DNA from: a virus
Length of the DNA: 57,441 nucleotides
Virus record (IMG/VR): IMGVR_UViG_3300020445_001222
Coordinates: 1 to 57,441 of that record
Direction: 5' to 3' (one strand)
In this document: positions 5,512 to 57,332 of the stretch, piece by piece
How the letters are laid out: every line of letters begins with the position of its first letter
Numbering within the stretch: position 1 is the first letter of the stretch
Translations under genes and position numbers: made by a program
The notes under the pieces: model-generated
The model's input: the letters and a program-made list of their open reading frames with translations, nothing else
Told to the model about the DNA's origin: nothing
Databases searched by the model: none

Positions 5512-6344
5512 TATCCTATCATATCTAGAGGTGGTAATTCATATGTTGATGACATTTGATCTCTGATCTCCTTAACTTCGTCAACACCATCTTGATAGAT
5601 TTCTCTACCGTTAAATTCTATTCCACCAGGTAATTTTACTCCTCTAAATTTAATTAAATTTTGTCCCCATTGCTTTTTGATAAGGGCAGTGCAATATCTC
5701 TTTAAAAAACTATCATTATAAACATTAGTGAAAGTTGAAGGATCTAATACCCTATAACAATCAAGAACAATATATTGATCTTTATCCTGAGATTCCCAAT
5801 CTATATCAAGATATAATCTATTTTGTCTCTTATTAAATCTTATTTGTTTATCAGTTGTAAGTAAAAAATCAATATCTTCCAAATATCTCTTTGTCATTGA
5901 ATATTGCAATAACTGAACTGAGTTAAAGAAATATAAATCATTTAAAAATAACTGATATTTAATACTAAACATACCACCAGATATTGAACTAGTATCAAAT
6001 TTAAATATCTTTTCAACACCAATTACAGAATCTGGAACATTTATATAATTTGCATTTTCATACCAAGTACTACTTCCGTAACCCCCCGCAGCAGTTCCAG
6101 TTGTTGATGTGACACTAGTTCCACTTGGAGGATCCGCCCTTCCTCTATCAAGATCATCTTGAGTAATTAAATATTTTAAATACATCCTCTCGACACCATC
6201 AAAGTGTCTTTCTTGGAAATATTGAATTGCATCATCAACTATATCATCAAGTTGCTCATCCGATACATTAACTTCGAGAACTGGTGCACCAAGTTGCCTT
6301 AAGCAGTGATCTATTAACTCCTGTTTAGTGGTGGGCTTTGCCAT
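5511..6344 (-). CDS. 13: Neck protein gp13
   Basis: 277 aa, close to T4 gp13 (309 aa). The N-terminus TTKQELIDHCLRQLGAP with VNVSDEQLDDIVDDAIQYF is the diagnostic start of the family, and the RYLEDIDFLLTTDKQIRFN and LDCYRVLDP segments follow in order. The protein caps the portal and joins head to tail. A serine/threonine/glycine linker around residues 73-90 (GTSVTSTTGTAAGG) is the only unusual segment. Confidence 0.93.
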   Translation of the reverse strand: MAKPTTKQELIDHCLRQLGAPVLEVNVSDEQLDDIVDDAIQYFQERHFDGVERMYLKYLITQDDLDRGRADPPSGTSVTSTTGTAAGGYGSSTWYENANYINVPDSVIGVEKIFKFDTSSISGGMFSIKYQLFLNDLYFFNSVQLLQYSMTKRYLEDIDFLLTTDKQIRFNKRQNRLYLDIDWESQDKDQYIVLDCYRVLDPSTFTNVYNDSFLKRYCTALIKKQWGQNLIKFRGVKLPGGIEFNGREIYQDGVDEVKEIRDQMSSTYELPPLDMIG

Positions 6345-37116: not shown

Positions 37117-37541
37117 ACTGCAAACCTCTTAACGCTGTGGTACGAATTGTACTGTCTGCAGATCCCACGAATCTGTTGATCAGTATCCCACTTGGTGTCG
37201 TCGGGGAACTGATTATCTAACGTTCTGATTCTGCTGATTTTCTGCCAAACGGATGCAGTACTGTGTTTTGTCTCTGGGAAGAACTTGAAGAAAACTGCCC
37301 GTGCTTTTTCCATGTCTGCCTGATTCAGTAAGTACGCATTCAACAGGCACTCTGTTTCTTCATCCGTGTAAGGTGTCTTTTTAGCAGATGCTGCTTTCTT
37401 TGCATCCTCTAAAAGTTGCCTTCCTTTTTTGAATAGCAGTCTCTCCTCCCTATCAAAATTGTGGAGACCGAATGCTTTAACCTGATTCTGTAGATCGTTG
37501 AAAGTGTCTACTGCGTACTGTTCGGTTTCAGAAAATGGCAT
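37113..37541 (-). CDS. Helical protein, possible Myb/SANT-like DNA-binding domain
   Basis: 142 aa. The central segment YTDEETECLLNAYLLNQ...ARAVFFKFFPETKHSTASVWQKISRIRTLD resembles a Myb/SANT-type helix-turn-helix (acidic first helix, aromatic spacing, STASVWQKISRIR as recognition helix). Residues 1-60 are coiled and basic. It may regulate transcription. A TATAAT at 37567-37572 lies about 26 bp upstream of the ATG. Confidence 0.5.
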   Translation of the reverse strand: MPFSETEQYAVDTFNDLQNQVKAFGLHNFDREERLLFKKGRQLLEDAKKAASAKKTPYTDEETECLLNAYLLNQADMEKARAVFFKFFPETKHSTASVWQKISRIRTLDNQFPDDTKWDTDQQIRGICRQYNSYHSVKRFAV

Positions 37542-37566
37542 GATGAATGTTTTTGTGTATAGAACT

Positions 37567-37572
37567 ATTATA
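37567..37572 (-). promoter_or_regulatory. -10 element TATAAT
   Basis: Minus-strand TTATAATAG upstream of the 142-aa gene; no convincing -35 at 16-18 bp. Confidence 0.45.
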
Positions 37573-37601
37573 AGGGAGGAACCCTACGAATAGAATGGAA
37601 A

Positions 37602-37625
37602 GTGGACGGTTTAAGAAACTGGCAC
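37602..37625. repeat. 3'-end palindrome, copy 1 of the dispersed family
   Basis: GTGGACGGTTT-aag-AAACTGGCAC, nearly perfect inverted repeat. It covers the stop codon of the zinc-ribbon gene. Other copies lie near 38073, 38549, 38842, 39231, 39683, 40653, 40889, 41172, 41586, 42455, 43005, 43407, 43753, 44101 and 57053. Confidence 0.7.
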
Positions 37626-37778
37626 TTCCCAACTTGATTTTTCTATGTATCCACTACACTCTGTGCAGTAGAGTGCCGACCAACTAAAATGGTAGACCTT
37701 GGAAACTGTGGAGCAATCAGGGCAAGTGATTTCTTTTCCACTCTGCCCTGCTCTGGTGTAACGATCAACTTTTCTCAT
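37611..37778 (-). CDS. 55-aa zinc-ribbon-like protein
   Basis: MRKVDRYTRAGQSGKEITCP with CPDC (residues 19-22) and CTEC (about 38-41) giving a CxxC-x15-CxxC zinc ribbon. The YHFSWSALYC link is typical of a conserved small cyanophage protein. It may bind RNA polymerase or nucleic acid. The start overlaps the stop of the 78-aa gene by ATGA. Confidence 0.7.
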   Translation of the reverse strand: MRKVDRYTRAGQSGKEITCPDCSTVSKVYHFSWSALYCTECSGYIEKSSWEVPVS

Positions 37779-38011
37779 ACCAAAGAATCCAAACGTGATT
37801 GAGGAACCTCTTTAAATTCTGGTAGGTCATCATGCCCATCTTTAAACCACTTGTTGATATGGCGGGAGGTCGTTACAGACCAGAATTTCTCAGTCTTTAC
37901 AAATCCTTCACCGAAGATGTATGCTGCAACAGGTGTGCGGTATGAAAACAAAATCCGTGCGTCGGGTGTTTCTACCTCTGTCATGTTGGAAGCGATTGGT
38001 GTAAGTTGCAT
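37775..38011 (-). CDS. 78-aa conserved cyanophage/cyanobacterial hypothetical
   Basis: MQLTPIASNMTEVETPDARI and later FWSVTTSRHINKWF. This pattern (SNMTE, ILFSYxTPVAA, SVTTxRHIxKWL) belongs to a small family that I associate with picocyanobacterial phages. SD AGGAG lies 8 bp before the ATG, and a TATAAT at 38038-38043 lies immediately after the next terminator. Function unknown. Confidence 0.72.
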   Translation of the reverse strand: MQLTPIASNMTEVETPDARILFSYRTPVAAYIFGEGFVKTEKFWSVTTSRHINKWFKDGHDDLPEFKEVPQSRLDSLV

Positions 38012-38037
38012 TGATGCTCCTATTGGTGTATGTATTC

Positions 38038-38043
38038 ATTATA
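38038..38043 (-). promoter_or_regulatory. -10 element abutting a terminator
   Basis: TATAAT two bases after the T-tract of the 38044-38070 terminator on the minus strand; it would start transcription of the 78-aa gene. Confidence 0.5.
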
Positions 38044-38070
38044 CTAAAAAACCCCCAGAGGTTGGGGGTT
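38044..38070 (-). terminator. Intrinsic terminator after the 134-aa gene
   Basis: Stem AACCCCCA / TGGGGGTT with a 5-nt loop and T6 tail on the minus strand. Confidence 0.8.
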
Positions 38071-38080
38071 GTGTGTGCCA

Positions 38081-38485
38081 TTATTTGAATTGGTTGCTGG
38101 TTGCCAATTTTGAAGGAAGTTCGACCAACTGCTGAACTTTTGGTTTTGCCTGTTCTACAAGTTGAAGAGCGTGGGGTCTTACAAGGTTGAATCCTTTTAC
38201 AAGATCAGAAACCAGTGCATTGATTTCATACTCATGAATTGCCCATCTTTGCTTTACATCTTGAAGATAGCGTTGGGGGGTAATCAGTCCTCTTGCACTT
38301 GGGCGTTTTGGTGCTTTGGGTGCTGCTGATTTTTTGGAGACTTTCTTCAGAGGTGTTTTGTTTGCCTCTGGTAGATTTACCGTAACACCCCCTGAGAGTT
38401 CAACGGTTTGTCTCTTTACTGCTGTTGCCTTTGGTTTGCGAGTTCTGGTCTTGCGTACCGTAGGTGCTTTAGCAGATGCTGTCAT
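38081..38485 (-). CDS. Basic 134-aa hypothetical protein
   Basis: The first 65 residues are a Lys/Arg/Ala/Pro-rich disordered tail (TRTRKPKATAVKRQ, KKSAAPKAPKRPSARG). The second half is a helical domain, ITPQRYLQDVKQRWAIHEYE..LVSDLVKGFN. The layout suggests a DNA-associated protein. RxxxRGLIT..RY followed by a helical HEYE region recalls a family seen in T4-like cyanophages. No known function. Confidence 0.68.
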   Translation of the reverse strand: MTASAKAPTVRKTRTRKPKATAVKRQTVELSGGVTVNLPEANKTPLKKVSKKSAAPKAPKRPSARGLITPQRYLQDVKQRWAIHEYEINALVSDLVKGFNLVRPHALQLVEQAKPKVQQLVELPSKLATSNQFK

Positions 38486-38513
38486 AGGAATTGATTCCGA
38501 TGTTTACTTTTAT

Positions 38514-38519
38514 ATTATA
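38514..38519 (-). promoter_or_regulatory. -10 element after a terminator
   Basis: TATAAT on the minus strand between the T6 tail of terminator 38524-38547 and the 134-aa gene. The -35 position falls in the hairpin but matches poorly. Confidence 0.5.
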
Positions 38520-38523
38520 GACA

Positions 38524-38547
38524 TTAAAAAACCCCTTTAGGGGGTTT
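38524..38547 (-). terminator. Intrinsic terminator after the 67-aa gene
   Basis: AAACCCC / GGGGTTT stem with 5-nt loop and T6 on the minus strand. Confidence 0.8.
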
Positions 38548-38595
38548 AGTGTGCAGTTTGGTAACTGTCTTTAAAAATCATTGAGGATTGATGAT

Positions 38596-38799
38596 TTACG
38601 CATCCTCAACTGTGTTCCAGACGGAGATGAATTCGCTGATCCACAACGCTTGACGTTCTGGGAGTAATCCAAGGTCTTGCTCATCAGCACTGCATGCTGG
38701 AAGGTTGTGTTTTTTGCAGTAGTCTGAATAGACGTCACAGAGGAAGGCGATTGCATCATACTGGTTGTTTGGGATTTGAAAAGGGTTGTTTGTTGCCAT
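38596..38799 (-). CDS. 67-aa conserved hypothetical, possibly from a leaderless mRNA
   Basis: MATNNPFQIPNNQYDAIAFL then CDVYSDYCKKHNLP and ERQALWISEFISVW. Conserved-looking in cyanophages, role unknown. The ATG has no Shine-Dalgarno. A TTAACA-17-TATAAT promoter ends only 6 bp before the ATG, so transcription should begin at or next to the start codon. Confidence 0.7.
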   Translation of the reverse strand: MATNNPFQIPNNQYDAIAFLCDVYSDYCKKHNLPACSADEQDLGLLPERQALWISEFISVWNTVEDA

Positions 38800-38805
38800 G
38801 TCTGT

Positions 38806-38834
38806 ATTATAAGCAAAAAAGAGACCCCTGTTAA
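38806..38834 (-). promoter_or_regulatory. Promoter TTAACA-17-TATAAT nested in a terminator
   Basis: The -35 hexamer (38829-38834) is exactly the 6-nt loop of the terminator hairpin 38822-38841, and the -10 (38806-38811) follows the T6 tail. Confidence 0.7.
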
Positions 38835-38841
38835 GGGGTCT
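38815..38841 (-). terminator. Intrinsic terminator after the 36-aa gene
   Basis: AGACCCC / GGGGTCT stem, TTAACA loop, T6 tail on the minus strand. Confidence 0.8.
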
Positions 38842-38860
38842 TGTACCACTTATTCAATTG

Positions 38861-38971
38861 TCATAGAACTGTGCCTTCTTCGGATACTTCAACAATATCC
38901 TCAAGAACTGCAAGGATTTCATTTCCATTGTCAGCGTTGTCAAGAAGGAATTCTGCGAATGCTTGTGACAT
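38861..38971 (-). CDS. 36-aa acidic micro-protein
   Basis: MSQAFAEFLLDNADNGNEIL then VLEDIVEVSEEGTVL. Acidic, helical; the AFxxFxxDNAxxGNE(I/L)L pattern is common in small cyanophage proteins. It is preceded by a long transcribed leader (38972-39190) and followed by a terminator. Confidence 0.6.
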   Translation of the reverse strand: MSQAFAEFLLDNADNGNEILAVLEDIVEVSEEGTVL

Positions 38972-39194
38972 GATAATAGGAGTGTCGGTTTACAAGGTGG
39001 GACTTACAGGACGTAATTTCTCTGCTGAACAGAGACAACCATAGATCCTTGCCCTGAAAAAATGATGTGGGACTTACATCTTCAAAACTCGCAATGAGTA
39101 CAAGAGGTTCGTCTTAAAGAGATTTCCACAGCGTCACCAAAAATGGAATTACTGAATTGGTTCTCACCCGTGCCTTGCGTTTGCCCACAATGTT

Positions 39195-39223
39195 ATTATA
39201 CAAGTTTTAAGGGGACTTGTAAC
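39195..39223 (-). promoter_or_regulatory. Promoter GTTACA-17-TATAAT nested in a terminator
   Basis: -10 at 39195-39200, -35 at 39218-39223, the latter mainly in the loop of the GGGG/CCCC hairpin 39211-39226. Confidence 0.65.
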
Positions 39224-39226
39224 CCC
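39211..39226 (-). terminator. Weak terminator after the 42-aa gene
   Basis: Four-pair G/C stem with an 8-nt loop, followed on the minus strand by TTAAAA. Confidence 0.45.
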
Positions 39227-39238
39227 AATTGTGCCAGT

Positions 39239-39367
39239 TTAAGAAATGTCCTCCTGTAGTCTGAAGGTTGAACGTGGTCTGATACAATCTACAATGAGAT
39301 GATACTCATCTCTGTCCTCGTAGATTTTAAGTAGTGCTTCATACACTTTAGGATCAAGCGGTTGCAT
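39239..39367 (-). CDS. 42-aa hypothetical protein
   Basis: MQPLDPKVYEALLKIYEDRD then EYHLIVDCIRPRSTF. Unrecognised. Its start lies inside the last codons of the 90-aa gene in another frame (14-bp overlap), and its stop lies in a copy of the dispersed 3' palindrome. Confidence 0.6.
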   Translation of the reverse strand: MQPLDPKVYEALLKIYEDRDEYHLIVDCIRPRSTFRLQEDIS

Positions 39368-39626
39368 AAGACCTCCCGAATCTTTCTGCGTAGTATGAGA
39401 TGTTAACATAGTCCCTCTTCAGAGTACAGATTTGGACGATTTCCGCCAATGCCAACCAATGGTCTGATGAATAGACATCTGGATTGCCCCATTCAGAAAC
39501 TGCTATTTCATTTTCAATATCGAAAGATCCATTCTCTAAAGCGGGACAACTCATAAGAGTTCCATCTTCAGATATCCAGAATCCCATTCCAAATGAGTGG
39601 GAGAAAACGATTTCAGGTTTTGGCAT
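39354..39626 (-). CDS. 90-aa hypothetical protein
   Basis: MPKPEIVFSHSFGMGFWISE, then CPALENGSFDIENEIAVSEWGNPD and a C-terminal helix with DYVNISYYAERFG. A compact beta-rich protein with no recognised family. Strong SD (GGAGG) before the ATG, and a TATAAT at 39649-39654. Confidence 0.62.
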   Translation of the reverse strand: MPKPEIVFSHSFGMGFWISEDGTLMSCPALENGSFDIENEIAVSEWGNPDVYSSDHWLALAEIVQICTLKRDYVNISYYAERFGRSYATA

Positions 39627-39648
39627 TTACCTCCGTGTGTATGGTCTT

Positions 39649-39654
39649 ATTATA
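39649..39654 (-). promoter_or_regulatory. -10 element directly at a hairpin base
   Basis: TATAAT begins one base after the GTGGGGG arm of the hairpin 39656-39677 on the minus strand. Confidence 0.5.
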
Positions 39655-39655
39655 A

Positions 39656-39677
39656 CCCCCACCAGTAGCAGTGGGGG
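39656..39677 (-). terminator. Hairpin after the KxDG nucleotidyltransferase gene
   Basis: CCCCCAC / GTGGGGG stem with an 8-nt loop. There is no T-tract after it, so termination may be weak. Confidence 0.5.
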
Positions 39678-39690
39678 AAAAAGTGGACAG

Positions 39691-40611
39691 TTATGCAACT
39701 GGTACAAATCGTCCACTGTTGAAGTTCGCATATGAGAAAATATGCCTATAAACTAATTTGTGCATCCCGTACTGATTAGTCTTTACAAACCCTTCACCTA
39801 TATGCTTATCATATCCTAGGTATGCCTGAACAGAATCATTATGGGTCAACCTACTCATGACCTCCCCTTTAATCGATTGTACTAATTGCCAGTACTTCAT
39901 TAACCCTGCATGGATCCCGTAATTTTTGGGATCCACTTCTCTACCTTCCCTATAATCTTTATTTATTTTTTTCTTTAACTCCTTCGCCGTTTTCTCATCT
40001 ACAAACTGGACCCCCTTCGCCATGTACCTGACAAAGTCAATTGACTTTTCCAACTCACTAATCGGTTCTCTTTCTCTGACCTCAGTGCCAACAAACAGAC
40101 ACTCATCCTGCTTTTCCCAATTATAAAAATAGGGAAACGACTTCATAGGGTGTGCTTCGGCATTTGCAAGATTGCCTTCACACTGCGTGGTAATGTACTG
40201 GGTATGTGGTGCAATTATTATTTTCTGCTCTACCACGTCGGGGAATTTATAGGTAAGGGTATTGGGTTTATATTCGTCAGAACCCCCGAACCCTATGAAG
40301 TCACCTTGAAAAACCATGTAACCTAAGCGGTGTGGTATGTGGTCTAAACACGCATGGAGAATTCTTGCAACTTCTCCACTGTGATTTGCGTCTATGTCCT
40401 CGTGTGAGTAATTGATCTTGATTTTGATCTTATTAAAGACGCTTTTAGTTCCCACAAAGAATTTGTGAGTTTTGGGATGATTGCCCCATACCACGGCGGG
40501 TGCACCATCATATTTCAATGAGGTATGCCCACCCCCTGTGAACCAATCCAACACGGATAAATCCCCTGTTAGGATTGTATCTTCGGGATGCTCTAGGTGT
40601 GTGTTTTTCAT
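39691..40611 (-). CDS. KxDG-type covalent nucleotidyltransferase (ligase-like)
   Basis: 306 aa. SLKYDGAPAVVWG (about residues 31-43) is a motif I with the nucleotidyl-lysine KYDG. GYMVFQGDFIGFG (about 97-109) fits motif III, and a late EGFVKTNQYGMHKLV (about 272-286) fits motifs IV/V with two lysines. This set is shared by ATP-dependent DNA/RNA ligases and capping enzymes. No OB-fold is obvious after motif V, so it is a minimal enzyme; RNA ligase or end-repair is the likeliest role. It stands alone between two terminators. Confidence 0.6.
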   Translation of the reverse strand: MKNTHLEHPEDTILTGDLSVLDWFTGGGHTSLKYDGAPAVVWGNHPKTHKFFVGTKSVFNKIKIKINYSHEDIDANHSGEVARILHACLDHIPHRLGYMVFQGDFIGFGGSDEYKPNTLTYKFPDVVEQKIIIAPHTQYITTQCEGNLANAEAHPMKSFPYFYNWEKQDECLFVGTEVREREPISELEKSIDFVRYMAKGVQFVDEKTAKELKKKINKDYREGREVDPKNYGIHAGLMKYWQLVQSIKGEVMSRLTHNDSVQAYLGYDKHIGEGFVKTNQYGMHKLVYRHIFSYANFNSGRFVPVA

Positions 40612-40627
40612 ACTCTTAGTATAGCAA

Positions 40628-40650
40628 TAAAAAACCCCCTCTTGGGGGTT
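40628..40650 (-). terminator. Intrinsic terminator after the 49-aa gene
   Basis: AACCCCC / GGGGGTT with a 4-nt loop and T6 on the minus strand. An extended -10 (TGCTATACT) for the nucleotidyltransferase gene follows at once. Confidence 0.8.
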
Positions 40651-40676
40651 GAGTGTGCCACTTTAAAGACTGTCCT

Positions 40677-40826
40677 CTATTGGAGTAATGAGAGATGAGA
40701 ACGAAGGAAATCCTTTGTGAATACATCTGTACCAAAGAATTCTTCAATGAAATAATCAACTGTTATTTCTTCCCTAGCACAGAAAATCTCAACGACTTTC
40801 CACTCAAGGTCAGTTAGTTCAGGCAT
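40677..40826 (-). CDS. 49-aa acidic hypothetical protein
   Basis: MPELTDLEWKVVEIFCAREE then ITVDYFIEEFFGTDVF. Helical and acidic, with an AAGGAG Shine-Dalgarno. Unrecognised. Confidence 0.62.
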   Translation of the reverse strand: MPELTDLEWKVVEIFCAREEITVDYFIEEFFGTDVFTKDFLRSHLSLLQ

Positions 40827-40930
40827 AAGACTCCTTTGGGGTGTACTCTTTTAATATAAGCGATCTTATGCACGAATGGGAATTATGGGTGCCACTTTGC
40901 CAACTGGATTCAGGCTGGAATTTTTGCCAA

Positions 40931-40957
40931 TAAAAAAGGACAGTTGGGTTACTGTCC
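40931..40957 (-). terminator. Intrinsic terminator overlapping the 53-aa gene stop
   Basis: GGACAGT / ACTGTCC stem, 6-nt loop, T6 tail. The TAA of the gene is within the stem-loop, and the stem uses the same GGACAGT word as the dispersed palindrome. Confidence 0.8.
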
Positions 40958-41110
40958 GTTTGTGTAAGATCCCATCAGGCAATTGCCGTATCTTACTTCT
41001 GCGTATCCGTACTCTTCGGATAAGTCGAGGCATAATCCCCAACAGTCGTCAAGGTCAACAAATGAGGAATTCTCATAAGGTGCGGATGGGCAGTGAACTG
41101 AATATCTCAT
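40949..41110 (-). CDS. 53-aa hypothetical protein
   Basis: MRYSVHCPSAPYENSSFVDL then DDCWGLCLDLSEEYGYAEVR. Four cysteines; small alpha/beta layout. Unrecognised. A TATAAT (41137-41142) lies 26 bp upstream. Confidence 0.62.
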   Translation of the reverse strand: MRYSVHCPSAPYENSSFVDLDDCWGLCLDLSEEYGYAEVRYGNCLMGSYTNGQ

Positions 41111-41151
41111 AGTTTTAAATTCGTGTGTATGCTATTATTATAGACACGCAA

Positions 41152-41168
41152 CCCCCCCATTTGGGGGA
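41152..41168 (-). terminator. G/C hairpin after the 62-aa gene
   Basis: CCCCC / GGGGG hairpin with a short AT loop between 41180 and the TATAAT at 41137-41142; few T residues follow. Confidence 0.5.
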
Positions 41169-41180
41169 TTGGTGTACACT

Positions 41181-41369
41181 TTACGAATTGACCCTAGGTG
41201 GGTCAACCTTACAGTCGCCCGATGCAATCCCCAAAAGGACTTTATCAGATAACGAATCAAATGCCTTAAAATCGAAATCAGGTGGCAGACCTTGATCGAC
41301 AAAATATGCGATGATGTCTGTTAGACACTCATCCTCAGAGGATGAAAAAGAGTAATTGAATTTTGGCAT
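41181..41369 (-). CDS. 62-aa acidic hypothetical protein
   Basis: MPKFNYSFSSSEDECLTDII then AYFVDQGLPPDFDFKAFDSL. Unrecognised. It overlaps the stop of the 51-aa gene by TGATG. It ends in a copy of the dispersed 3' palindrome. Confidence 0.62.
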   Translation of the reverse strand: MPKFNYSFSSSEDECLTDIIAYFVDQGLPPDFDFKAFDSLSDKVLLGIASGDCKVDPPRVNS

Positions 41370-41524
41370 CAGTTCAACTCCTCGAATCTTTCAAGAGCAA
41401 ATTCTTCTGCCAATGAATTCAGAGTTTCAACGGATTCCTGAAGTCCAATTTGACTTGCTTGTAAATCTGCAAGCATCTCATCAAAAAAATCCTCTTTGAT
41501 GATTTCATTTTCTAGGCAACTCAT
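41369..41524 (-). CDS. 51-aa acidic helical protein
   Basis: MSCLENEIIKEDFFDEMLAD then LQASQIGLQESVETLNSLAEEF. Predicted to be fully helical. AAGGAG Shine-Dalgarno and a TATAAT at 41551-41556 precede it. Unrecognised. Confidence 0.62.
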   Translation of the reverse strand: MSCLENEIIKEDFFDEMLADLQASQIGLQESVETLNSLAEEFALERFEELN

Positions 41525-41558
41525 TCAGAACTCCTTTGGTGTACTTTTAAATTATAGT

Positions 41559-41637
41559 CCCCCAACCCTACGAATTGGGGGTTTAGTGGACAGTCTGGAA
41601 ACTGTCCATGGGCAGCTGGAATTTTTTACAATTCCAG
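41559..41637 (-). terminator. Three consecutive hairpins after the DUF1281-like gene
   Basis: On the minus strand the order is CTGGAAT/ATTCCAG, then GGACAGT/ACTGTCC (a perfect member of the dispersed palindrome family), then CCCCCAA/TTGGGGG. A TATAAT follows immediately. Confidence 0.65.
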
Positions 41638-41644
41638 TTTATAA

Positions 41645-42157
41645 TCATAAGTATCCTGCGAACTCCATTCCTGGTTCATCATAGAACCATTGAATTGAAA
41701 CCCTATCATATTTCTCTTTCAATTCTGCTGCAATCTCTTCGGGTGGACTCCATGCAGTATCAAAATGAATTACGCAGTAATCTTCATCATCATCCCCCCA
41801 TTCTATATGATCTCTGTGTACATCCCATTTAGTTCCCCAATTTTCAACTTGCCAATTATACCATCTATCATCATGAACACCAGTTGATTCAAATACTAAA
41901 GTCTTACTTTCAATCGGGTTCCCATTTGGGTGGAAGTACTGTTTTTCAACTGGTAATTCTCCAACTTCGCCACGCTTGCGTCCTAAGTATTCAAGATCTT
42001 CTTCACTTAAAGGTAGGTTCTTCCAATCGGGTGGTGGGAGAATCTTTTGAAAAATATTGTCTGATAGGAACAATTCCTTGATTTCTTTAAGTTGTTCTAG
42101 TGCCTCTTCGCTATCTTGACAGGAAAAGGTTACTCTATTGCTGCACCAATTTGGCAT
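41645..42157 (-). CDS. DUF1281/YubB-like MPNWCSN protein
   Basis: 170 aa from the ATG at 42157, chosen because it overlaps the preceding stop (TAATG) and gives the family start MPNWCSNRVTFS. The body (FQKILPPPDW near residue 41, WYNWQVENWGTKWDV near 105, FDTAWSPP near 140) is the ferredoxin-like pattern of DUF1281 proteins from plasmids and phages. The biochemical role of the family is unknown. Confidence 0.8.
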   Translation of the reverse strand: MPNWCSNRVTFSCQDSEEALEQLKEIKELFLSDNIFQKILPPPDWKNLPLSEEDLEYLGRKRGEVGELPVEKQYFHPNGNPIESKTLVFESTGVHDDRWYNWQVENWGTKWDVHRDHIEWGDDDEDYCVIHFDTAWSPPEEIAAELKEKYDRVSIQWFYDEPGMEFAGYL

Positions 42158-42393
42158 TAGTTTAACCTCCAATCAATTTTTAGATGATCATCATCATGGC
42201 AACGATCTAATGCATCTAGGTCTTCATTGCCATCTTCATCATAACAAGCAAAGACGAACTCTTCGCAGAAATACTCAACAGAGATGCCACCTAGTCGTTC
42301 ACATGCCCTGAGTATGTCACCAATTTCATCATTGGAGAGTTCAAGGTCATCAATGCAGAATGCAATGTCTTTTTCAAGTTGTTCAGTACTCAT
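42157..42393 (-). CDS. 78-aa acidic hypothetical protein
   Basis: MSTEQLEKDIAFCIDDLELS, CERLGGISVEYFCEEFVFACYDEDGNED. Strongly acidic, helical then mixed. Pairs with the DUF1281-like gene in a two-gene operon led by the nested promoter at 42420-42448; SD AAGGAGG. Unrecognised. Confidence 0.66.
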   Translation of the reverse strand: MSTEQLEKDIAFCIDDLELSNDEIGDILRACERLGGISVEYFCEEFVFACYDEDGNEDLDALDRCHDDDHLKIDWRLN

Positions 42394-42419
42394 GATCCTC
42401 CTTGATTGTGTACATTCTT

Positions 42420-42448
42420 ATTATAAGGGTAAAAGGGGGTCATGTAAC
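42420..42448 (-). promoter_or_regulatory. Promoter GTTACA-17-TATAAT nested in a terminator
   Basis: -10 at 42420-42425, -35 at 42443-42448. The -35 spans the loop of the terminator hairpin 42435-42452. Confidence 0.65.
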
Positions 42449-42452
42449 CCCC
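42435..42452 (-). terminator. Intrinsic terminator after the 156-aa gene
   Basis: GGGGGT / ACCCCC stem with 6-nt loop, TTTT on the minus strand. Confidence 0.7.
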
Positions 42453-42474
42453 TAGTGGACACTTTGGTTACTGT

Positions 42475-42945
42475 CTATCTTAGGTAAAGATATCCTCCTG
42501 CCCAATCTACGAAATTTGGATCTAGTAACTTACGTAGATCTGTTGGTTCGCAGAATGAGAATCTAACGTATTTTGTGTGTGGTGCCCTCCATGATGCGGG
42601 TTTGTATACGTTACCTAGGACAGATTTCTCTTTTCCTACGAACGAATGAACAGACCCATCGCGCCACTCATTCCTATCTCGGAAGGTGTCGAATTCTTGT
42701 TGTATGATCTTATAATACTTTCTTCCCACTTCAAAGCGGAACTTCATTAGGTTAGCAGTCCCGTTTGCAATTTCGTCTAATTGCTGCTGTGCAAAACTTT
42801 TCTCTATATCCCCACGCTCTTGATCAAGATTTCTTTCCAAGCACCTTTTATGGTAGTTCAGATAGTTTTGAGTAATGGCATTGCAGTAATCCTTTACGTA
42901 CTCCAAAAGGAAGTTTTGGTCTGTAGTTTCAGTGAGAAGAGTCAT
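42475..42945 (-). CDS. 156-aa hypothetical protein
   Basis: The start at 42945 (MTLLTETTDQNFLLEYVKDY) is preferred over an upstream in-frame ATG at 43035, because that one overlaps the neighbouring gene and the TATAAT at 42970-42975. The first 100 residues are helical and charged; the C-terminal half (VHSFVGKEKSVLGNVYKPASWRAPHTKYVRFSF) is beta-rich. Unrecognised. Confidence 0.65.
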   Translation of the reverse strand: MTLLTETTDQNFLLEYVKDYCNAITQNYLNYHKRCLERNLDQERGDIEKSFAQQQLDEIANGTANLMKFRFEVGRKYYKIIQQEFDTFRDRNEWRDGSVHSFVGKEKSVLGNVYKPASWRAPHTKYVRFSFCEPTDLRKLLDPNFVDWAGGYLYLR

Positions 42946-43016
42946 GGGTGTGTTTGTTAACTTAGTTTTATTATAAGCGCGGTAGTTTAAATCCGCACTG
43001 AGTTGTATGCCAGTTT

Positions 43017-43223
43017 CTAATCTGTCCCTTCCCAACCCGTTACATTTTTTACTATCGTATCATATGATGTAATCTCATTATTATCTGCCACTCTATTCTC
43101 TTCCTCTTCAGTCTCGCACGGTACCGAGAAATTTACCTCAAACTCATCAGTGTAATCTTTGTAGTTGGTAATTTCCACAGGGCACTGGTCTAACCATTCC
43201 TGAAATTGCTCATATTTGGTCAT
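43017..43223 (-). CDS. 68-aa acidic hypothetical protein
   Basis: MTKYEQFQEWLDQCPVEITN then DEFEVNFSVPCETEEEEN. Small acidic beta-rich protein, unrecognised. Coupled to the 48-aa gene by ATGA. Confidence 0.65.
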   Translation of the reverse strand: MTKYEQFQEWLDQCPVEITNYKDYTDEFEVNFSVPCETEEEENRVADNNEITSYDTIVKNVTGWEGTD

Positions 43224-43366
43224 GGTGAAATAATCTCCTCATAAAGATCATCAAATTCCTGAGAGTCCCAACCCTTGGCATCGGGCACGTCCATCTCATA
43301 TGCAAACCCAACTAGTTCAACAAGCATTTCTAATTGGGAATCGGTGAAGGTCTTAATGTGTTTCAT
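43220..43366 (-). CDS. 48-aa acidic hypothetical protein
   Basis: MKHIKTFTDSQLEMLVELVG then FAYEMDVPDAKGWDSQEFDD. Acidic helical micro-protein. First gene of a pair; a TATACA box follows the terminator at 43382-43405. Confidence 0.62.
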   Translation of the reverse strand: MKHIKTFTDSQLEMLVELVGFAYEMDVPDAKGWDSQEFDDLYEEIISP

Positions 43367-43381
43367 AATTCCATTGTATAC

Positions 43382-43405
43382 TAAAAATCCCCCTTGAAGG
43401 GGGAT
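43382..43405 (-). terminator. Intrinsic terminator after the 84-aa gene
   Basis: ATCCCCC / GGGGGAT, 5-nt loop, TTTTT on the minus strand. Confidence 0.8.
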
Positions 43406-43417
43406 TATGGGACACTT

Positions 43418-43672
43418 CTAGAAGTGGACTAATGCAGACTTCCAATATTGAAAGTCGGTTGTTGCTTTCATCTCATTGAACATTGACTGGACCTCAGAGT
43501 AATCAGCATCACCCCATTTAACCCCGTCGCCAGTTACTGGACACCCACACCCGATCATGTCATTCATGAAATCTTGAAATCCCGCAGATGCAAGGGCAAG
43601 GTTGTAAAGGGTCTCATCATTCTGAATCCAGAGAGAAACGTTCCAGGTCTCGTAGTTTTTCCAACCGTTCAT
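43418..43672 (-). CDS. 84-aa NGWKNYETWNVSLW family protein
   Basis: The N-terminus MNGWKNYETWNVSLWIQNDE is the hallmark of a small phage family common in cyanophages (a DUF7249-like group, from memory). The rest includes a GCGCPVTGDGVKWGDADYSEV region. Function unknown. It is alone between two terminators. Confidence 0.78.
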   Translation of the reverse strand: MNGWKNYETWNVSLWIQNDETLYNLALASAGFQDFMNDMIGCGCPVTGDGVKWGDADYSEVQSMFNEMKATTDFQYWKSALVHF

Positions 43673-43729
43673 GATGAATCCCGTAGAGTGTGATGTGTGG
43701 AAGTCCTTCCACTTCTTTATAATACCAAT

Positions 43730-43750
43730 AAAAAACCCCCTGTGGGGGTT
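43730..43750 (-). terminator. Intrinsic terminator after the 89-aa gene
   Basis: AACCCCC / GGGGGTT with 3-nt loop and T6 on the minus strand; a TATTAT box follows. Confidence 0.8.
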
Positions 43751-43773
43751 TAGTGGACAGTTTCTCAGGTGGT

Positions 43774-44043
43774 CTACCTGATATCAAAATGATTTACCCT
43801 GTCTTGTTGGGATGCATACTCATACCCATAGATCTCCATCAGATAATCACGGACCCTTTCTCTGTCGAGACTGTCGCCATTGCCCCATGTCATCCCAGGG
43901 AATCTAGTGTCTGGATTTTCCAAATCATCAAGATACTTGAGTGTGGCAAATGCTATCTCTTCCTTGCTGCATCCAAAATCATACAGACCACCTGCCCCAT
44001 AGAATGAGAACACGTAATCAACGAATTCCTGAAAGTTGTGCAT
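43774..44043 (-). CDS. 89-aa hypothetical protein
   Basis: Start chosen at ATG 44043 (MHNFQEFVDYVFSFYGAGGL). The open frame extends to 44124, but the extra 27 residues overlap a copy of the dispersed palindrome at 44101. The VDYVFSFY...GLY and NGDSLDRERVRDYLMEI patterns recall a small cyanophage family. It is the first gene left of the palindrome island. Confidence 0.65.
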   Translation of the reverse strand: MHNFQEFVDYVFSFYGAGGLYDFGCSKEEIAFATLKYLDDLENPDTRFPGMTWGNGDSLDRERVRDYLMEIYGYEYASQQDRVNHFDIR

Positions 44044-44386
44044 AGAGATTTGTGTATCTAGAACCAATATAGCAAATCCTCCAACGAATGGGACAAATTT
44101 GTGCCAGTTTGATCTTTGGCACATCTAGATCATCGATTGCATGCTGCGCAGCTGCGATTGTTGTAATTCTTATTATATTCTATCTCTTTTTCATCCAATT
44201 CTCGTACTGGCACACTCGCTGTTGCCCTTTTCTAGTATCATGATATAATCTCGGTTAAACCCATACAAAGGTATGTATAATATTCCAATTTTTAAAGTGT
44301 CATAATGTGCCAGATACCTAGGTGCACATATGATATCATGTATACATGTAATCTAGATGCGACGTATCATATTATACATGCGCAGG

Positions 44387-44771
44387 CTCGTCGAGATGCA
44401 TGCAGTATATGTGCGCAGATATGTGCGCGTTCTCGTCGAGATGTACATACGTGACGCACATGGGCTCGTCGAGATTACATGTGTATATGCAGGCTCGCTC
44501 GACTAGATGCACGTATGTGTGCAAGCTCGTCGAGATTCATCATGCATAATACTGTAATGAGAGCTCGTAGAAATCTTGAGAGTCTCGTCGAGAGTAATAT
44601 TCCTCGTCGAGATCATGTAAGTTATCGTGATTAGATCTAGAAGTCTCGTCGAGATCACCTTGAGTAGTATAGTCGAGATCGTACCAGTCGCAACAGTCGT
44701 CGTACATAGTCGAGATGAATTAGAATACTTATAGTATAGCAGGTTCTCGACTAGATTGCAAGCTCTTCGAG
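44387..44771. repeat. Array of about 13 copies of the 9-bp palindrome CTCGTCGAG
   Basis: Exact copies start at 44387, 44432, 44465, 44526, 44584, 44603 and 44645. Variants are at 44498 and 44746 (CTCGACTAG), 44564 (CTCGTAGAA), 44669 and 44706 (ATAGTCGAG) and 44763 (CTCTTCGAG). Most are followed by AGAT or AGA. Spacing is 17-45 bp and irregular. The copies look like binding sites for a dimeric protein. Confidence 0.85.
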
Positions 44772-44827
44772 AAAACTCATAGTAGTATATATGTACATAC
44801 CAGATCTTTGTGTTACAATTTAGTAAC

Positions 44828-53719: not shown

Positions 53720-56700
53720 AAAATATCAGGAATAGTTCTGAATAATTCTTTTGAGTTAGTATTAACTATTCTGTTCTTTAGAACCATTTGATGTACCTTA
53801 TCAGATCTTAAATAATCTGCAAGTTTGTTACTATCTTCTTCCGAAGATGTTTTTATAATAACTGTAGATCCACTGATAGCATGATCATATGGTTTAATAC
53901 GAACTTGTCCAAAACCTTGTCCACCATATTTACTATTCATTACAACTCCATGTTGATTAACACAACAAGTATACTGAGACTTATCAACATTAGTAACTTG
54001 CATCTCTCCATTTTTACCACCCATTGTGGTTATCATAGGATACTCCCCCTCAATCAACTGATTTAAGTTCAAATCTCCACGTTGATAACGATGTCCCATA
54101 TTGTTAGGAACATCTGAAACAAAATCTGGATTAGTAAATCTAATGCAAGTATCAGCAGTAATTTGAATATTCTTTACTGTACCATCAAGATAGGTTAATT
54201 TTGTTGTACCAGTATACCCACGTTTCCATGTACAGATACATGTTTCTGTCATTGATATAGATGGAAATGTATCAGGAGATAATGCTTCAATAGAAACAAT
54301 ACCTGGTGTTGAAAACAAAGTTCTTCTAAACTTTGATGTGGATTTGGCAAAGTGTTTTGATCTGATTACTTCTGATACATAATCAGACCTATTCATTGCA
54401 TTTAGATAGAAATGTGTATCTAAAGTTTTTGCACATCCACCTGTGGTTGCACCTGTTACTGTAGATGTATCCGTATATGGTGGATTGCCAACTGTCGCAC
54501 TAAATTGCATATTGTAATTAGAAAGATCGTCAGTTACATTAATTTTAGCATTAATCTGCTTTATTGCATAGTGATGTGTAGGATCATTCTCCCATACCAC
54601 TATATCATCAGGTTCCCAATCCTTATTCTCTATTGCATATAAAGAATGAAGTCCAGAGGGATCTCCATGTATATACAACTTTTCAGTTGTATACTTTTTT
54701 AAAGGAATTATTCTATCAAGAATATCTAATGAAAGTGTCTTTTGATTCTTCCTAGTAGTTGCAAGTTTCTGTAAAGTTCCACATTCATCTTTAGACATAG
54801 AATGTTCTATATCTACAATCCCTTGATCGATTCTATTAATCCATGATTTAGGTATAACCTTCTGATCTAAACAAGTCTTAATAATACCAGTAGTATCTCC
54901 TGTATCATGTTTATAATATTCTGAATTAAGAATACTATCCACACTTTTAGGTGTTGATTTATTCTTAATCATATGAAAGATGACTAATCCTATTCTCTCC
55001 ATATATGCTTGAATAGTCTCTGTCTTCTGTGCTATCTCAGACTTATCATAGTGTGTAGAAAATTTAGATGAACTGGTAAGTTTCTTATTACTCTTTGCGT
55101 TAGCATTGTTCTCATTTACTGTAAAAGAACTCCATGAAGATAACTTTGCACTCTTCTGAAAGTTATCAAATTCAATGTCTCCTAACTTAAGAAAATCTAA
55201 TTGAGATACAATACCTGATATTAAAGATACTGCACTGTCTACATCATTAGATAAGATTTCATTTAGACGTTCTGGAGTTACTTCTTCAAAATCAGAGAAG
55301 TATTCAAAGATAGGAACTAAATCAAGAAGTTCATACTCAGATTCTGTTAACTCATGATTCAAATCACATGCAGTAAAATACATGTTTCTGATTGTAGTAA
55401 AACAACGTTCTGGACAAAAATCAATTACATCCCAAGAGTTTCTCTTTGTGGATCCACCACGAAAAGCAAACTGTGTCCATTGTTCTCTTGATGATCCTTC
55501 TGCACAATTCATAACAGTATCAATACCTTCTGCAGTTAAACCAAGAACATTTGCAGTTTTAGTTAAAATAACTGTAGATGTATTAGTATCAATATGTGAT
55601 CGGATTGTATCAGAATTTTCTCTAGTATCTGAAGTTACAACTAATGGTTTAAATCTTGTTGATTTAAAATAATCTACAAGTGCATGACATGATGCCATAG
55701 AAGGCAAAGTTATCATTATATGTCTAGAATTCTTTAATATTCTTTTGTTATACTTTATTCCATCTTGAGTAAAAACTTTACTCATAAATTCATCAACTAA
55801 TATTGGTTCAACAAAATCATCTTCATCCTTGTTTACCCTAAAAATGTTACCCATCGCATCAGGATCATCTCCATACAAATCTTGATATTTACTAGACTCA
55901 TACTTTGCAAGAATCAATCTCATCTGTGGAGAATTTGCATACTCTTTTATACCTTGCAGTCTATACAACTGCTCCTCAAAGTATGAATATACAAATCTAA
56001 ATCTAGGAAAATCCTCTAAGATTTTATTTGCAGTTCCTGAGACATACAATACTTTTGTATCAAAGTGATCTCTAAGACTTATCCATTGATCTCCCTCATA
56101 TCCAAGATGTGCTTCATCAAATACTATCAGATCAATATTACAAGGTAAGTTTTTATATCTGTTAGGAGCTTGAATAGTTGAATATAAAACTATCTGTTTA
56201 TTAGTTCCCATCCAATACTCTATCTCACTCTTAAACTGATCTACCTCTCCATCACGAATATCAATGAATACAATATTATCAAAGTTTTTAAACTCTTGGG
56301 AATCATCTCTCCATGATTGTTTAGGAGAGTTTCTATATGAAACAACTAAGGATACTTTAACACCACTCTCTACAATAGAGGAAAGAACCATTGTAGATTT
56401 ACCTGCACGACACTTAGCAAATAACAAATACTCTTTCCATTCATCCCATGTTGAAGTTATCTCAGATACAAACTCTTCCTGATGTTTGCGAAGTTTACGA
56501 TATTCTTTTTCCTCTACATTATCTGTAAAGAACTCTTCTTCAATAAGATCCTTAACAACGTCGATACTTAAACCATAACCTTCTTCAATTCTAAAGGTCT
56601 CTCTACCAGTTTGTGTAATACCACGTTGTTTTTTTAACCATCTATGTATCTTATGATCTCTACCATCAAAATCTGTCCACCATCCTCTCTTTATTCTTGC

Positions 56701-57017: not shown

Positions 57018-57045
57018 ATTATAGCATTAAAAAACCCCCTGTAAA
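57018..57045 (-). promoter_or_regulatory. Promoter TTTACA-16-TATAAT nested in a terminator
   Basis: -10 at 57018-57023, preceded by TGC (extended -10), and -35 at 57040-57045 in the loop and stem edge of the terminator 57031-57050. Confidence 0.7.
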
Positions 57046-57050: not shown

Positions 57051-57062
57051 TTGTGACACTTT

Positions 57063-57332
57063 TTAAACTGTCTTAGATCTTCGCATTCTTGTCTTACTTT
57101 CAGTGTAATTTACAGGTGCCCATTCAACTTCCTTTGATTTGGTTTTTCTTAAATTAGCACTCTCTTTTTTTACAAAGGTACTAGACTCTTCCCTAACATT
57201 TTTTGCAAGGGATTGTCCACCATTTAATTCTTTCTCAACTGTTGGTGATTCAAACTGTTTTAGATAACCTTTTCTACTAAAAAGTTTATTCGATTGTACA
57301 GCATCCTCAGATGTTATTGGTTCATCATTCAT
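57063..57332 (-). CDS. 89-aa basic hypothetical protein
   Basis: MNDEPITSEDAVQSNKLFSR, then a Lys/Glu/Ser-rich disordered body and a basic end (SKTRMRRSKTV). No recognised family. It overlaps the CP12-like stop (ATGAATGA), so it is coupled to that gene, and its last codons lie in a copy of the 3' palindrome (57053). Confidence 0.65.
   Translation of the reverse strand: MNDEPITSEDAVQSNKLFSRKGYLKQFESPTVEKELNGGQSLAKNVREESSTFVKKESANLRKTKSKEVEWAPVNYTESKTRMRRSKTV

Follow-up and report, generated by a model that had tools for sequence, protein, structure and literature searches.

Palindrome copies in the small-gene block

IMG/VR virus record IMGVR_UViG_3300020445_001222, analysed here over its whole length (57,441 bases; hereafter the window), codes on the minus strand for nearly all of its genes. 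Its g6-type baseplate protein has 59–63% identity to those of T4-like cyanophages, with S-SKS1, S-SRM01 and P-SSM2 among the closest, and the other baseplate proteins of the window have the same affinity. Beside g25–g6 lies a block of small genes that carries repeated copies of a short palindrome, an arrangement found at the same location in P-SSM2 and P-HM2. A sequence-only reading of the window had described at least 16 dispersed copies, assigned them to gene 3′ ends as part of a terminator–promoter cassette, and offered three functions for them: a recombination seam, an mRNA 3′-end processing site or a protein-binding site. All of these copies were located (16/16). The palindromic character of the proposed consensus stood, but its '3–4 variable bases' did not: when the copies are aligned on the symmetry axis there are exactly four central bases, and the element reads (G)TGNCA(C/G)TT-N4-AA(C/G)TGNCA(C). 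A matrix made from the 16 copies, which therefore scored the same copies on which it had been trained, gave 26 window matches at a score of at least 12, compared with 1–3 in five dinucleotide shuffles.

On the gene strand, every copy is followed about 31 nt past the repeat by a TATAAT-like −10 hexamer (16/16). The copies are listed below as predicted operators, a designation argued for in later sections, together with their −10 boxes and the terminators found between the two.

37605..37624, minus strand: palindromic operator with the weakest operator score (3.2); −10 TATAAT at 37572–37567
38076..38095, minus strand: palindromic operator; nested terminator 38070–38050; −10 TATAAT at 38043–38038
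38551..38570, minus strand: palindromic operator; nested terminator 38547–38529; −10 TATAAT at 38519–38514; a relative has an extra gene cassette here
38844..38863, minus strand: palindromic operator; nested terminator 38841–38822; −10 TATAAT at 38811–38806
39232..39251, minus strand: palindromic operator; −10 TATAAT at 39200–39195; the long leader includes a conserved segment of 56 nt and is followed by a small gene
39685..39704, minus strand: palindromic operator; −10 TATAAT at 39654–39649
40656..40675, minus strand: palindromic operator; nested terminator 40650–40633; −10 TATACT at 40623–40618; start of homology to relatives
40890..40909, minus strand: palindromic operator away from a stop; upstream terminator 40957–40938; −10 TATATT at 40858–40853
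41174..41193, minus strand: palindromic operator; −10 TATAAT at 41142–41137
41588..41607, minus strand: palindromic operator; nested hairpin 41581–41559; −10 TATAAT at 41556–41551; start of homology to relatives
42457..42476, minus strand: palindromic operator; −10 TATAAT at 42425–42420
43008..43027, minus strand: palindromic operator; −10 TATAAT at 42975–42970
43410..43429, minus strand: palindromic operator; nested terminator 43406–43386; −10 TACAAT at 43378–43373
43755..43774, minus strand: palindromic operator; nested terminator 43751–43733; −10 TATTAT at 43724–43719
44102..44121, minus strand: palindromic operator away from a stop; −10 TATATT at 44071–44066
57054..57073, minus strand: palindromic operator with the best score; terminator-like hairpin by eye; −10 TATAAT at 57023–57018

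Directly upstream of the copy at 40890–40909, positions 40938–40957 (minus strand) read GGACAGTAACCCAACTGTCC, which is perfectly palindromic and has T6 directly after it. This operator-like sequence acts as an intrinsic terminator or has evolved into one.

Spacing to the −10 box in phages and hosts

Because its distance to the −10 box is fixed, the repeat is placed in the promoter of the following gene, as the upstream part of that promoter, and the view of it as a 3′-end element was not borne out. With a −10 box at every window copy, its description as the third part of a terminator–promoter cassette was confirmed, and the G/C terminator said to follow the repeat was called by the prediction tool between operator and −10 in 7 of the 15 copies in 37300–44500. 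A promoter model trained on 67 isolate promoters, with the window excluded from training, recovered all 16 window copies with their −10 boxes on the minus strand at a score of at least 11. At this threshold, 36 matches were found on both strands of the window, compared with a mean of 1.55 (maximum 4) in 20 shuffles. The motif was not equally frequent inside the large structural genes (window 1–36300), which held just one composite match at a score of at least 11, at 6114. A plain sigma-70 scan of 37300–44500 returned 21 matches, not above the 16.9 in shuffles, consistent with a weak −35 element and with promoters that may rely on the operator for assistance.

The same spacing was evident in viral contigs picked by the palindrome alone. 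An exact palindrome search returned at least 120 stretches (113 distinct IMG/VR copies) and, among the matches listed, a TATAAT-like hexamer lay about 30 nt past the repeat in gene orientation. Boxes agreeing with the −10 hexamer at five or more of six positions stood 30 or 31 nt past CAC in 54 of the 113 listed copies, with 0–3 at most other offsets, and a looser −10 match at 28–32 nt was present in 81 of them. The peak recurred in seven isolate genomes and the window (31–32 nt from the end of the 20-mer), and isolate copies were laid out in the order operator, spacer, −10, ATG. In many of the listed viral stretches, the spacer between operator and −10 held a terminator or a TTGACA-like hexamer. 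The mirror side of the palindrome also had a −10 peak at the same offsets (26 of the 113 listed copies), which fits an operator whose symmetry lets it serve divergent promoters as well. Some palindromes in P-SSM2 (44651–68764) and other isolates had a correctly spaced −10 on both sides, which suggests bidirectional promoters with one common operator.

Among phages, the palindrome with at most one mismatch was present in 14 of 15 T4-like cyanophage isolates (8/9 and 6/6), and the same search found none in T4, P-SSP7, P-SS2, Ma-LMM01 or S-TIM5 (0/5). The composite promoter model gave 6–47 matches per genome in all ten T4-like cyanophage isolates scanned (SynMITS9220M01 had 6), compared with 0–2 in one two-base block shuffle per genome; the window in the same scan had 25 matches versus 0 in its block shuffle, both strands of one palindrome being counted separately throughout. 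T4-like cyanophages carry several to dozens of copies each, mostly in the small-gene block upstream of g25–g6. Fourteen palindromes were also seen on a few short contigs (C52, C54, C70 and C26) of a non-cyanobacterial metagenome-assembled genome labelled Flavobacteriales TMED113 (G002); these are probably misbinned cyanophage contigs.

The element also occurs in hosts. Of 386 cyanobacterial genomes, 36 contained the strict palindrome, mostly as a single copy, and none contained its reversed control. At 13 of 20 host palindrome loci examined, the site stood before a shared RNA-like segment starting AAGGAGTGATA, and a Cyano-1 RNA (RF01701) lay directly downstream of the palindrome at three of the eight loci given to Rfam; host sites had their −10 at 31–32 nt. 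We take Cyano-1 to be Yfr2, from background knowledge and from the shared GTGTGAGGAG core, and a pattern combining the Yfr2 core with an operator half was present in 43 of the 386 genomes. A Cyano-1 search of 117 genomes, 48 of them with matches, supplied 30 loci (92 kb), on which the promoter model built from phages only gave 25 matches, compared with 1 in the shuffle. Of these matches, 14 coincided with the Cyano-1 RNA start (14/30 loci) and had the operator-to-−10 spacing seen in phage, four preceded further GTGTGAGGAG copies, and most of the rest arose from palindromes already counted, read on the other strand. These host sites overturned the idea of a phage-only element, which had been suggested by an exact GTDB scan for the palindrome plus TATAAT: that scan returned 11 contigs, none labelled Prochlorococcus or Synechococcus, and missed hosts because their −10 boxes are often TATTCT or TATCCT.

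The 13 host loci at which the operator precedes this other RNA-like gene, starting GCAAGGAGTGATACC, were L369–L374, L376, L379, L380 and L383–L386. Rfam gave no match in any of five such loci (L369, L371, L374, L379 and L384), and the gene may encode a second RNA targeted by the regulator considered next.

A candidate host regulator and its competitors

According to PMC6778093, PMM1637 is a GntR-family regulator common to all cyanobacteria that binds yfr2 promoters with the element CGRE1, which in MED4 lies at yfr2 promoters and nowhere else, and Yfr2 is induced via PMM1637 by nitrogen starvation and high light. The homologue of PMM1637 is named PlmA in PMC7344720, which ties it to PII–PipX. 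The GntR domain (PF00392) was present once or more in each of three host genomes and in none of ten cyanophages. We favour, with fair confidence, the reading that the palindrome is the operator of this host GntR regulator and forms the upstream part of a sigma-70-type promoter, as in the Yfr2 genes. Of the three functions offered by the sequence-only reading, a predicted protein-binding site fits best. The palindrome would then be identical with CGRE1, PlmA would bind the phage copies and activate from them, and the operator-linked genes may be expressed early. As at yfr2, the phage element is an upstream promoter part, and the phage-trained model finds host Yfr2 starts at equal spacing; the phage copies differ in driving protein genes, in being many and usually more symmetric, and in often enclosing a terminator.

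The geometry suggests how such a promoter could work. If transcription starts 7 nt past the −10 box, the operator centre would fall near −53, a short way beyond the −35 position on its upstream side, and a regulator dimer bound there would be placed as an activator touching RNA polymerase, the most likely mode. Small phage genes would be hooked to the host regulator through a copied operator, in a compact cassette ordered operator, terminator, −10 and gene, with the terminator of the preceding gene folded into the operator-to-−10 spacer.

Several observations weigh against this assignment. A −10 box at 28–32 nt was lacking in 32 of the 113 listed IMG/VR copies, and 16 of the 30 host Cyano-1 loci were without a model match at the RNA start. 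Two low-GC host genomes of 1.7–1.8 Mb, probably Prochlorococcus, keep the distal half-site TGACAGTT with a degenerate proximal half, and the half-site pattern was present in 13 of 61 genomes of the same family (control 0), some at other spacings. The regulator may be a repressor, or another regulator may share the box.

Other phages offer precedents for promoters of this general form. T4 middle promoters likewise join a regulator box to a sigma-70 −10 and do not need a good −35, but the MotA box is at −30 and is unlike the palindrome. The late promoters of P2 and P4 have a partial palindrome near −55 from which the activator (Ogr or Delta) contacts RNA polymerase; their sequence and protein family are different and the activator is phage-encoded. 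A phage-encoded regulator, analogous to MotA, might similarly read the cyanophage box, having come to use the one that the host regulator uses, a possibility that we regard as unlikely. The greater number and symmetry of the phage copies are in its favour, as is the expectation of a replacement regulator, given that T4-like cyanophages are described as lacking T4-like middle promoters and being without motA and/or asiA (PMC5780444, citing Doron et al. 2016). Regulators are known to be encoded by other cyanophages, such as a MarR-type protein in P-SSP7 (PMC9692554). However, the screen of the ten cyanophages, which covered the GntR family only, found no such protein, and the element stands at the same place and spacing before host RNA genes, so that a host reader exists anyway.

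The operator could also keep phage genes off, many GntR proteins being repressors, or act as a decoy that titrates PlmA from yfr2; this too has a low probability in our judgement. The operator is situated further upstream than the −35 position, in a zone from which activators work, and a decoy would not need the strict 30–31 nt spacing to the −10. In favour of titration, PlmA is scarce, at 200 dimers per cell in S. elongatus (figure legend in PMC7344720), and could be drawn off by dozens of replicating sites. Against repression stand the induction of Yfr2 through PMM1637 (PMC6778093) and, provided that it carries the operator, the very strong Yfr2a promoter of Synechocystis described in PMC2662882.

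Gene exchange, transcript ends and consequences for cyanophages

Gene content changes at the palindromes more often than at random positions nearby. From 341 sequences (340 viral loci and a segment of the window), we obtained 80 distinct borders of gene-sized indels, which are drawn from related contigs and hence not independent; 24 of them lay within 45 nt of a palindrome centre, compared with 11.8% of random nearby positions, and 11 of the 17 borders with a direct-repeat overlap of at least 20 nt were at palindromes. Compared with a 97–98% identical contig (L455), the window is missing one whole cassette with both borders in the repeat. The extra cassette of L455 comprises an operator, a terminator, a −10 and a roughly 52-codon gene with its stop in the next operator, where the window has a single hybrid operator–terminator (38551–38570). 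Homology to more distant relatives restarts at 40664–40678 and at 41606, both of which are operator positions. Being direct repeats, the cassettes also offer homologous recombination sites for the gain and loss of genes. Although these findings would also suit a primary role as a recombination seam for the exchange of small genes, like an integron attC or a T4 promoter-early stem-loop (PeSL), we consider such a role highly improbable: 56 of the 80 borders lie away from palindromes, host copies precede RNA genes and not cassette arrays, the fixed spacing to the −10 would serve no role there, and ordinary homology between repeated promoters explains the seam adequately. The seam proposed by the sequence-only reading thus survives as an evolutionary consequence of the repeats.

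By eye, the palindrome ends (GTG...CAC) are unlike the core site of attC as we know it. The T4 PeSL is a composite of a terminator and an early-type promoter in hyperplastic regions, where genes come and go at the repeat. Cyanophage cassettes share its repeated terminator-plus-promoter units between small genes and the gene indels at cassette borders, but in them a palindromic operator precedes the terminator at a fixed distance from the −10; we know of no operator for a host regulator in a PeSL. No PeSL terms occur in PMC2988022.

The tie to stop codons was upheld for most window copies but is not a defining property. Judged from the list of open reading frames (ORFs) and the sequence, a minus-strand stop lies inside or within 5 nt of 12 of the 16 copies, the exceptions being those at 40889, 44101, 41586 (stop at 38 nt) and 38549 (26 nt, or directly alongside when an ORF starting with GTG is accepted). 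The tie is weaker in isolate genomes (P-SSM2, 7/34; S-CAM7, 18/40; chance, about 0.05), and it is a by-product of tight packing. The suggestion that the copies at 40889 and 44101 mark lost genes failed, as both have a −10 and a downstream gene start; at 40889, the terminator of the upstream gene sits before the operator (40957–40938). An RNA hairpin for 3′-end processing, stability or antitermination of the preceding mRNA, to which an inverted repeat directly before terminators and the nearby stops would point, has a close to negligible probability: the arms showed no covariation over 123 isolate copies, their paired positions varying independently (44 paired versus 53.2 expected under independence at the most variable pair, and C–C and G–G mismatches commoner than pairs at position 6/15), the element is also present where no gene ends, and its spacing is fixed to the next promoter and not to the stop. 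The palindrome is therefore not an RNA hairpin, and the proposed mRNA 3′-end processing site is not supported. An Rfam scan of the window gave no match.

Two other features of the small-gene array were observed. A 56–65-nt non-coding segment, GGGCAAGGATC...GTAAGTCCCAC, lies at 38998–39066 (minus strand), where an operator-type promoter has a long leader ahead of a small gene, and is nearly identical in otherwise unrelated marine phages (P-SSM2 55969–56033, L223 and L566–L571); it had no Rfam match in the window and is possibly a phage small RNA (sRNA) or leader element. At the upstream edge of the array (44385–44773), 11 dispersed copies of a 13-nt repeat, GGCTCGTCGAGAT, occupy about 400 nt.

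Our search of the literature on cyanophage palindromes or promoter motifs found nothing on the present element. The promoter search of Sullivan et al. 2010 in cyanophage genomes was for the sigma-70, T4 late, Pho and NtcA types. CGRE1 together with cyanophage was not found in the literature searched, outside of which fell Lambrecht 2018, Doron 2016 and Comeau 2014, and the link may already be in print. Provisionally, CGRE1 and PMM1637 in hosts and PeSL cassettes in T4-like phages are already known, and their union in cyanophages is new.

We see about an even chance that T4-like cyanophages, which lack the middle-transcription proteins of T4, run a large array of small takeover genes from the host nitrogen and light regulator PlmA via dozens of copies of the operator of an sRNA gene. 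If true, phage gene expression would respond to the nutrient supply and redox status of the host cell, and every gene would move as a cassette complete in itself and under host regulation. The element would bear on the question of how early and middle transcription are ordered in T4-like cyanophages, which do without MotA and AsiA. Shared between genomes, easy to scan for and paired with a named candidate regulator in the host, it would predict transcription start sites and a regulon in every genome, and infection is predicted to depend on nitrogen, light and redox through PlmA. The element would provide a concrete cis-acting basis for flexible-gene exchange and would connect Yfr2, an sRNA circuit widespread in cyanobacteria, with takeover by phages.

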